The notes under the pieces were generated by a model. That model saw only the letters and a list, made by a program, of their open reading frames with translations. It searched no databases and was not told where the DNA came from. A program made the translations under genes and the position numbers. Below are positions 32,113-35,011 of a stretch of DNA of 64,000 nt, in pieces. This DNA is from Anaerolineales bacterium (lineage in GTDB: Bacteria > Chloroflexota > Anaerolineae > Anaerolineales > UBA11579): positions 744,001-808,000 of the forward strand of contig JAHBVE010000001.1 of assembly GCA_019637675.1 (NCBI GenBank), read 5' to 3'. The number at the start of each line of letters is the position of its first letter. Position 1 is the first letter of the stretch.

Positions 32113-32613
32113 CTATCCCGGCTTCTGCTGTTGGTCGTACAAATAGAAAACCAAGTCTTGCGGGCCGGTCTTCTGGCCGGCGTCGTGCAGAGCGCGCAGG
32201 ATCTGGGCGCGGTGGTCGGTGCCGTGGTTGGCGACGTGCAGCAGCACCTGCCAGACGGCCAGCTCGGCGTCTTCGCCCTGCAGCGGCTTGCTGGCCAGCG
32301 TTTCCTCGGTCAGGCTGTTGATGTAGGTCCGCATGGCGTCCTCCACCTGGTCCCAGTAGGCGCGCAGGGCAGCGCGGTCCTTGCCGGGGTTCTGCTCGTC
32401 GATCTCTTCTGCGGGCATCGGCGCGCCGAGGTCGAGGAACCAGATGTGATCGACGCGGATCAGGTGGGCGATCTGTGTGCGCAGCGAACCCATCGAATAG
32501 TCGAGCGGCTGGGTCCAGATCTCCTCGGGCAGCTCGGCCAGGTGGCGCTGCCAGATCTTGCGGTTCTCGCTGATGTGATAGTCGTACAAGGTGCGGAAGG
32601 CTTCAACGTTCAC
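32113..32613 (-). CDS. DinB-family protein
   Basis: 166 residues starting at the GTG at 32613, which has GGAGAG four bases upstream; this overlaps the end of the SRAP gene by 11 bases. The DinB four-helix pattern is visible: AFRTLYDYHISENRKIWQRH, then LRTQIAHLIRVDHIWFLDL, and VLLHVANHGTDHRAQILRAL with the three histidines expected to bind a metal (H in AHLIRVDH, H and HxxxH in the last motif). Such proteins are often thiol-dependent transferases or stress-induced. Translational coupling with the SRAP gene hints at a shared damage response. Confidence 0.85.
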   Translation of the reverse strand: MNVEAFRTLYDYHISENRKIWQRHLAELPEEIWTQPLDYSMGSLRTQIAHLIRVDHIWFLDLGAPMPAEEIDEQNPGKDRAALRAYWDQVEDAMRTYINSLTEETLASKPLQGEDAELAVWQVLLHVANHGTDHRAQILRALHDAGQKTGPQDLVFYLYDQQQKPG

Positions 32614-33334
32614 GTTTCTCTCCAAAGTTTTGTTCAAGGATCTTTTCATGCGGCGGGTCAAAGGGCAGCGGCTCGACGCATTCAGGCACGTCGTTGACCG
32701 CGTTGCTGACGATGGGGGCGACCTGATGATAGGTCATCTCGTCTGGTGGGTAGGGCTGCAGCAGGGCTTGCAGGGTCTTTGGGTCGCTGACTTCGCCCGG
32801 CTGCAGCCAGGCGGCGATGTGCTCGGCGGGCAGGATGACGCCCATGCGGTGGTGGATCTGCTTGACCAGCGCGTTGGGCGCGCAGGTGATGGTGGCGCAG
32901 GTCTTGACCTCGGAGCCGTCCATCGAGTGCCAACTGTCCCACACGCCGGCCAGGGAGAAGGGGCGGCGGGATCTGAGGTGCACCCAGTACGGAACCTTCT
33001 CGCGCTTGCGCGGGAACTTGACCCATTCGAAGATGCCATCGGCCAGCACGATGCAGCGGCGGTAACGGAACGGGCCGCGGAAAGCGGGGGTGCGGGTGAT
33101 GCCCTCGGAGCGGGCGTTGATCAGCAGCGAGGTCATCTTGGCGCCGCTGGAGAACGAGGGGATCAGGCCCCAGTTGACGAAGTCAACTTTGTTGCTGCCA
33201 TCGTTGAGGACGACGGCGACAGGTTGGGTGGGAGCAATGTTGTAGCGCGGAGCAAGCTGGTCTGGCACGCTGAGCCAAGGGAAGGTGTCCCGGATGAGGT
33301 CTCGGCTGGCGGTGAGGGTGAAGCGGCCGGGCAT
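32603..33334 (-). CDS. SRAP (YedK/HMCES) protein lacking the catalytic Cys2
   Basis: 243 residues of the SOS-response-associated peptidase family, which traps abasic sites in single-stranded DNA. The active site in E. coli YedK is C2, N75, E105, H160. Here N73 (LINARSEG), E103 (DGIFEWVK) and the histidines of IHHRMGVIL (161-162) are kept, but the N-terminus reads MPGRFTLTA: Cys2 is replaced by proline. GGAGG is placed eight bases before this ATG and no upstream start restores MCGR. Without Cys2 the thiazolidine crosslink cannot form in the known way. Downstream is a coupled DinB-like gene; upstream, after a repeat block, a radical SAM repair-type gene. Confidence 0.9.
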   Translation of the reverse strand: MPGRFTLTASRDLIRDTFPWLSVPDQLAPRYNIAPTQPVAVVLNDGSNKVDFVNWGLIPSFSSGAKMTSLLINARSEGITRTPAFRGPFRYRRCIVLADGIFEWVKFPRKREKVPYWVHLRSRRPFSLAGVWDSWHSMDGSEVKTCATITCAPNALVKQIHHRMGVILPAEHIAAWLQPGEVSDPKTLQALLQPYPPDEMTYHQVAPIVSNAVNDVPECVEPLPFDPPHEKILEQNFGEKRER

Positions 33335-33796
33335 CTACGCCGCCTCCGCAGCTGCGCTGCTCCGTCGGCGTTTGCAGTTTGCTGCTGCTTCGCAGCAAGC
33401 GCAAACTGCGCGCTGCAATTTGCGGAGCAACTCTGGTTTGGAGATGGTGCGCCGCTTTGCGGCGCTGGAGTTGTTGCGCAACTCCGGTTGCAAGATGTTG
33501 TTCGTTTTAGGGGTGGGGGTATAGGGTGCAACTAAAAAGATATCTGGGTGAGATAGCGCTGCATCCGTGTAGGGGCGGGTCTCAGACCCGCCCTTTGGTA
33601 CTGGGTGGGAATTCGCTGTGCGCGGAAGATGAGTGAATGATGGGTCCTTCGCTGAGCTGGGTTCGGCGGTCTGGTGAGGATGTAGAAACCCGCTCAGGAT
33701 GACATTGGGAGGCGAGGATGGTTTGTAGGGGCGGGGCTTAGACCCGCCAATCAGCCTGGCATCCGTAAGGGTGGCGGCGCTCAACATATTGTTATT
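33335..33796. repeat. Gene-free block of hairpins and dispersed repeats
   Basis: From 33345 to 33495 the DNA is a chain of near-palindromes such as GTTTGCAGTTTGCTGCTGC facing GCAGCAAGCGCAAACTGC, GCGCCGCTTTGCGGCGC, and GGAGTTGTTGCGCAACTCC. Then come the palindromes GTAGGGGCGGGTCTCAGACC.. at 33569-33593 and GTAGGGGCGGGGCTTAGACC.. at 33725-33748, and between them a copy of the ATGACA-ending family at about 33632-33707. No gene is supported. Confidence 0.7.
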
Positions 33797-35011
33797 TTAA
33801 CCGGGGAAGCGCGGGCGCAGTTGCGGCGTGGGCTCGGCCATGTCCATTAGGCGGGGCTGGAAGCTGGGCTGGCGGCCGTTGAGCAGCACGAAGGGCGCAC
33901 TGCGCTTGGGTACGATGCCCAGCTGCTTGAGCTGCTCCAGGCTGGTGATGGCGCGGTGGCGGCGGGCACGCAGGATGGCATCCGCGCTCTTGGGGCCGAT
34001 GCCGGGCACCAGCAGCAGTTGCTCGCGGCTGGCGGTGTTGAGCTCGACCGGCTTGTGCAGCAAAGTTTGCTCGGCCCAGGCGGTCTTGGGATCTTTGTTG
34101 AGCGGCAGGTTGCCGCTCTGGTTGAAGGGCAACTCCTCCATGGCGAAGCCGTAATCGCGCAGCAGGAAGGAAGCCTGGTACAAGCGATGCTCGCGCCAGG
34201 GGTTCTCCGGGCGGTGATTCTCCAGCGGGGTGTCAATGATCGGCGAAAAGGCCGAGTAGTAGGTGCGCTTGAGCTTGAGCTCGTGATAGAGATATTCGGA
34301 GGTCGAGACCAGCTCCACGTCGGTCTCGTCGGCGCCGCCGACGACGAACTGAGTGACCGAACTGGCCCAGCGCCCGTTCCAGGTGCTGGCGGGCGCCTCA
34401 TTGACGCGGATCTCTTGCGCCCATTTGAGCGGGGCCAGCAGCTCGTCTGCAAATTTCTTCATCGGCGCCAGGGTCGCCAGGCGCTGGGCGTTGGCGCCCT
34501 CCAGATTCACCGAGATGCGGTCGGCCAGCTGCATGGAGCGGCGCACCTGGTCGCGGTCGGCGCCGGGCATGATCTTGAGGTGCAGGTAGCCGCGGAAGCC
34601 GAGCTTGTTGCGCAGAATTTCGGCGGTGTCGATGAGCTTGTCCTGGGTGGTGACGCCGCCCTTGATAATGCCGGAACTGAGGAAGAGGCCTTCGACCAGG
34701 CGTTGGCGGTAGGCCTGGTAGGAGACCTGGGCCATTTCGTCCGGCTTGATGGTGATGCGTTGCATTTTGCTGCGGCCGGCGCGGAAGGGGCAGTAGTTGC
34801 AGTTGCGCTCGCAGGCGGTGGTGAGCATGCTCTTGACCACCTTCATCTTGCGGCCACCGGGTAGAGAGACTTCGCTGATGGGGATGGTGGCTACGGGGCG
34901 GGCAGGCAGCTGGCGGCCGCCGACCACGGGGGCGCAGACCTGGTCGTTCTCGCTGTCGGCTTCGAGGTGCATATCCCGCCCGACGACGCGCAATTTTTGC
35001 AGCGTTTCCAT
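33797..35011 (-). CDS. Radical SAM protein of the putative DNA modification/repair type
   Basis: 404 residues. The cluster motif is CERNCNYC (C67, C71, C74; CxxxCxxC). The family pattern includes FLSSGIIKGGVTTQDKLID, YLHLKIMPGADRDQV, VNLEGANAQRLATLAP, and the C-terminal helix-hairpin-helix ELNTASREQLLLVPGIGPKS (about 315-335) expected to bind DNA. This matches the group named rSAM_link_UDG, which usually lies beside a uracil-DNA-glycosylase-like partner. I see no such partner in this window. A DNA-repair role is inferred from the family. The nearest gene downstream is the SRAP gene, 460 bases away. Confidence 0.85.
   Translation of the reverse strand: METLQKLRVVGRDMHLEADSENDQVCAPVVGGRQLPARPVATIPISEVSLPGGRKMKVVKSMLTTACERNCNYCPFRAGRSKMQRITIKPDEMAQVSYQAYRQRLVEGLFLSSGIIKGGVTTQDKLIDTAEILRNKLGFRGYLHLKIMPGADRDQVRRSMQLADRISVNLEGANAQRLATLAPMKKFADELLAPLKWAQEIRVNEAPASTWNGRWASSVTQFVVGGADETDVELVSTSEYLYHELKLKRTYYSAFSPIIDTPLENHRPENPWREHRLYQASFLLRDYGFAMEELPFNQSGNLPLNKDPKTAWAEQTLLHKPVELNTASREQLLLVPGIGPKSADAILRARRHRAITSLEQLKQLGIVPKRSAPFVLLNGRQPSFQPRLMDMAEPTPQLRPRFPG

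Follow-up and report, generated by a model that had tools for sequence, protein, structure and literature searches.

Cysteine 2 has been called 'absolutely conserved' in the SRAP family (PMC3765255), and in E. coli YedK the alpha-amine of this residue attacks C1' of the abasic site first, after which the thiol closes a thiazolidine (PMC9436759). The stretch of DNA analyzed here, 64,000 nucleotides from an Anaerolineales bacterium (contig JAHBVE010000001.1, positions 744,001 to 808,000; hereafter the window), encodes a YedK/HMCES-like SRAP protein with proline in place of this cysteine. The locus raises the question of whether every SRAP must stay on DNA, or whether the fold can also act as an abasic-site lyase.

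A SRAP gene with proline at codon 2

The gene lies on the minus strand at 32603..33334, as do all codons located below, and its complete open reading frame specifies 243 residues beginning MPGRFTLTAS. Codon 2 is CCC (33329..33331), at a site where all Cys2 relatives have a cysteine codon. An in-frame TAG (33335..33337) stands immediately 5' of the ATG, so that no in-frame start lies further upstream and the N-terminus falls at or after Met1. The protein matches the Pfam SRAP model PF02586 at 207.6 bits (cut-off 27.1 bits) over model positions 1–213 of 214; SRAP is the sole family in the Pfam scan, with no match to the Fpg family (PF01149). Cys2 is missing from the window protein and from all ten members of the clade described below, and the remaining active-site residues N73 (33116..33118), E103 (33026..33028) and H161 (32852..32854), at the positions of YedK N75, E105 and H160, are retained in 10 of 10 members. 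By alignment, the catalytic histidine is H161, the first of the HHRM motif. The initial annotation had read proline instead of Cys2 from the MPGRF start and had listed N73, E103 and H161/H162 as retained; the reading frame, the upstream TAG and the codons bear out both points. By profile, by fold and by three of the four active-site residues, the window protein belongs to the SRAP family.

The reading frame of a DinB-superfamily gene (PF05163; 32113-32661, minus strand) overlaps the end of the SRAP gene. Just upstream of SRAP, on the same strand, positions 33797-35011 encode a radical SAM protein with a helix-hairpin-helix, whose best NCBIfam match is TIGR03916 rSAM_link_UDG, a putative DNA modification/repair family, at 277 bits, below the cut-off of 343.5. 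The rSAM_link_UDG, DinB-like and ABC genes adjoin SRAP in both close relatives examined (L029 and L030) and were not found in the 3 kb flanks of L031–L034, so gene order offers no functional link.

Distribution, origin and selection of the Pro2 clade

The N-termini of SRAP proteins found by a search of 24 genomes of the window's family were read. The MPGR start is present at the main loci of nine genomes of the window's genus, the window included, and in one genome of a second genus (G016), giving Pro2 in 10 of 10 relatives with a readable N-terminus; proteins of other genera of the family start with MCGRF, or with MCARF in one. Within the clade Pro2 is unchanged down to 52% identity to the window protein, and the nearest named record (CP075367.1, Anaerolineales ACE_CHL1; 99% identical) also starts with MPGRF. 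The proline codon varies between CCC, CCG and CCA, and a change from TGY to CCN requires at least two base changes. A sequencing error hiding a TGC codon, for which the initial annotation had allowed, is ruled out by Pro2 in nine other genomes with varied proline codons.

To collect non-Cys2 homologues, as had been proposed at the outset, SRAP sequences were drawn from the window's family, order and class, from the best 80 loci in 84,980 species genomes, and from viral contigs. Among the distinct SRAP sequences with a readable N-terminus in this set, residue 2 is cysteine in 206 and proline in 10, with no third residue. For the sequences sampled, chance is excluded as the origin of this pattern (10/10 against 0/206). 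No Pro2 copy was present among the readable hits of one viral contig scan, and the phage SRAP copies in the 206-sequence set carry Cys2.

When 400 genomes of the order are searched with a profile built from the Pro2 clade, eleven of them, from three genera, score 394–454 bits, and none of the others exceeds 334 bits; among 400 phylum and 396 class genomes sampled, the window's own genome alone stands out. In a maximum-likelihood tree built without residues 1–5, the Pro2 sequences and one sequence from a third genus, g5, group together (SH-aLRT 97), and a single change of residue 2 is needed. The tree gives one origin of Pro2, which lies inside one Anaerolineales family. Pairwise dN/dS values (NG86) among close Pro2 members are about 0.07–0.11, showing purifying selection on the Pro2 SRAP. 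In the g5 contig (genome G015, OMJR01000143.1), the N-terminus of the SRAP is cut off: the first 90 bases, just before the gene, are AT-rich and look unrelated, so that the contig seems chimeric there.

The window's own genome also encodes a Cys2 SRAP (C3:20120-20854; MCFRF start, 35% identical), the single Cys2 copy there, which would favor viewing the window gene as a decaying paralogue or as an error. However, this copy lies in a prophage, near genes for major head and tape measure proteins, and in seven of the nine other Pro2 genomes the search turned up the Pro2 gene as the only SRAP. Together with the low dN/dS, these observations rule out a decayed paralogue: the second Cys2 copy that the initial annotation had envisaged exists, but the decay does not. 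With ten genomes in agreement on Pro2, we regard error or decay as having a negligible probability.

The prophage-type SRAP (phrog_1599) adjoins a phage-type DNA polymerase gene (phrog_262) both in the window's own genome and in G009 (L269:5758-6264), where this second SRAP copy is truncated. In G016, a tandem pair (L268:7055-8469) comprises a Pro2 copy (MPGRI) and a strongly diverged Cys2 copy (MCTAIDL) on a long branch. Two genomes of the window's genus, G010 and G012 (68% and 92% complete), gave no SRAP match, and the genus may therefore be able to do without the gene.

The change at position 165 and the predicted pocket

In the MAFFT alignment, 26 positions are at least 95% conserved in the Cys2 SRAPs, and the Pro2 clade changes the main residue at only four of them: C to P at 2, W to F at 61, L to I at 95 (in half of the members) and P to G at 165. 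The main residue is kept, among others, at N73, R75, E77, E103, W104, T150, H161 and R163. Position 165, the proline of the HxRxP motif that follows the catalytic histidine, is Pro in 206 of 206 sampled Cys2 sequences and Gly in 10 of 10 Pro2 sequences (codon 32840..32842 in the window). The g5 SRAP, in which residue 2 is unreadable, also has glycine here and is predicted on this basis to carry Pro2. Given the single origin, the changes at residues 2 and 165 share one branch; a coupling between them does not follow. Our guess is that Gly165 makes the pocket roomier for the proline ring. The clade-wide fixation of Pro2 and its co-change with residue 165 are new beyond the loss of Cys2 that had been noted earlier. 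A replacement cysteine elsewhere in the protein was considered and rejected: no cysteine is specific to the Pro2 clade, and C94, C146, C151 and C219 are frequent among Cys2 SRAPs as well.

The AlphaFold2 model of the mature protein, beginning at Pro2, has a mean pLDDT of 92.5 (94 for the first ten residues) and adopts the SRAP fold. VIA-align comparison with 15 SRAP entries gives Z scores of 20.6–28.7, the next entry reaching 2.0; the scores are 27.3–27.4 for HMCES, 25.2–26.0 for YedK–DNA complexes and 25.7 for 8d2m, the Schiff-base complex of YedK C2A with DNA. Residue 1 of the model, which is Pro2, pairs with residue 2 of the YedK and HMCES chains, 8d2m included. In the AlphaFold2 prediction, Pro2 thus occupies the place taken by Cys2 or Ala2 in YedK.

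A remodelled pocket, which the co-change at residue 165 fits, could belong to a noncovalent sensor of abasic sites. Abasic single-stranded DNA would be bound in the SRAP pocket and shielded there, or partners would be recruited, with no bond formed, while Pro2 merely fills the site and Gly165 makes room. Except at Cys2, W61 and P165, the highly conserved SRAP positions are kept, in agreement with such a role, but E103 and H161, retained in 10 of 10 members, serve chemistry beyond binding in YedK (PMC9436759), and blocking or removing the YedK thiol leads to strand cleavage rather than quiet binding. We consider a purely noncovalent sensor unlikely, if worth weighing. The same conserved positions, active-site residues among them, argue against some other activity, such as the once-proposed autopeptidase or a role away from DNA, in which Pro2 would be a structural end. 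The SRAP family was named after a predicted thiol autopeptidase (PMC3765255), but that prediction requires the cysteine thiol, which is absent here, and we judge such an activity very improbable.

Proposed chemistry and relation to known systems

Studies of YedK and of the Fpg/Nei enzymes indicate what an N-terminal residue without a thiol can do. YedK without the thiol (C2A or C2S) forms a Schiff base that can be trapped by a reductant; in C2A, this borohydride-trappable intermediate forms via the N-terminal amine and AP-DNA is cleaved, the AP lyase activity requiring Glu105 and His160 helping ring opening (PMC9436759). In Fpg/Nei, the secondary amine of the N-terminal proline acts as the nucleophile that forms the Schiff base at abasic sites, and in Mycobacterium smegmatis Nei2, whose crystal structure lacks Met1, Pro2 is the nucleophile needed for AP lyase activity on single-stranded DNA (PMC11323726). 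Cys2, called essential in the initial annotation, is thus needed for the stable crosslink but, as YedK C2A demonstrates (PMC9436759), not for Schiff-base formation or lyase activity. Since the window SRAP has no thiol at residue 2, and with it no N-terminal 2-aminothiol, we infer that a thiazolidine DNA–protein crosslink is excluded on chemical grounds.

Considering YedK C2A and Fpg/Nei, an N-terminal proline next to an intact Glu and His is expected to yield an iminium, followed by elimination or hydrolysis. In the mechanism that we propose, methionine aminopeptidase would remove Met1 (type I genes are present, and proline is residue 2), leaving proline as the N-terminal residue at the place of YedK Cys2. 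In single-stranded DNA, E103 and H161 would open the ring of the abasic site, and C1' would be attacked by the proline's secondary amine to form the iminium (Schiff base). As no thiol is available for thiazolidine closure, this intermediate would undergo beta-elimination or hydrolysis, and the protein would act as an AP lyase or a short-lived trap, using the chemical strategy of Fpg/Nei on an unrelated fold. We assign a probability of about 0.55 to the window SRAP being a natural proline-imine AP lyase or transient trap without a permanent crosslink. That the lineage turned a SRAP crosslinker into an N-terminal-proline imine enzyme, convergent with Fpg/Nei, via paired Cys2 to Pro and Pro165 to Gly changes is in our view an even bet. 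Of the three possibilities named in the initial annotation (binding without covalent trapping, a different way of acting and a novel catalytic strategy), the first holds as far as the thiazolidine crosslink is lost, but transient imine or lyase chemistry appears likelier (PMC9436759, PMC11323726), because the first nucleophile of YedK is the alpha-amine, and an N-terminal proline keeps such an amine, along with the activating Glu.

Several considerations count against a proline-imine lyase. Compared with alanine or cysteine, proline takes up more room and is less flexible, and it might miss C1' in the pocket; the P2C mutant of Nei2 is inactive as a lyase (PMC11323726), so a swap at residue 2 need not keep activity. 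Cutting of AP sites in single-stranded DNA at forks could do harm, and the Pro2 genomes also carry Fpg, so that an extra AP lyase meets no obvious need. The two genomes of the genus with no SRAP match also weigh on this side, as the gene may be dispensable. An Fpg homologue (PF01149) is encoded elsewhere in the window's genome, and PF01149 is present in all genomes of the genus except one, which is 76% complete; Fpg loss is thereby ruled out as the reason for Pro2. The nth and nfo models gave nothing above curated cut-offs in the 24 family genomes, Cys2 and Pro2 alike, and so have no bearing on a link with Pro2.

The proline iminium might instead be shielded from elimination and hydrolyzed later, making a reversible protective crosslink with faster release than a thiazolidine. 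YedK already catalyzes the reversal of its own crosslink (PMC9436759), and the clade-specific changes at 61, 78, 165 and 210 could tune elimination versus hydrolysis; yet YedK C2A eliminates, and no sign of slowed elimination is seen here, which makes a protective crosslink improbable. The clade-wide replacement of Cys2 by proline suggests that the Pro2 SRAP may cut or briefly hold damaged DNA instead of staying bonded. Although this cysteine has been described as absolutely conserved, a natural clade lacks it, is under purifying selection and keeps the remainder of the active site; in this clade evolution, not mutagenesis, would have separated amine attack from thiol closure, the two steps of the SRAP reaction. 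If the proposed chemistry is true, an N-terminal proline has come to perform imine chemistry at abasic sites on a fold with no relation to that of Fpg/Nei. A text search of open-access papers found no report of a natural SRAP proline variant.

Our comparison with known systems reveals that E. coli YedK (PF02586; PDB 6nua, 8d2m), about 25% identical to the window protein, shares its fold (Z 25.2–25.7, rmsd 2.4–2.7 over 211–214 residues), the Asn/Glu/His residues and the placement of the N-terminal residue. The differences are Pro2 for Cys2, Gly165 for the HxRxP proline and Phe61 for the usual Trp. The SRAP domain of human HMCES (PDB 6oeb, 5ko9) has the same fold and is the best PDB sequence match by E-value (1.4e-26), whereas HMCES carries Cys2, an HHRMP motif and an insert in the alignment that is absent from the window protein. 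Fpg/Nei enzymes (MutM/Nei, PF01149; e.g. mycobacterial Nei2) likewise have proline as residue 2 of the reading frame, but their fold is unrelated and the likeness is one of strategy only. The YedK C2A mutant resembles the window SRAP in its thiol-free residue 2 with a free alpha-amine and is a Schiff-base AP lyase (PMC9436759). While C2A is laboratory-made and presents a primary amine, the window SRAP is natural and clade-wide, has a co-change at residue 165, and would present a secondary amine.
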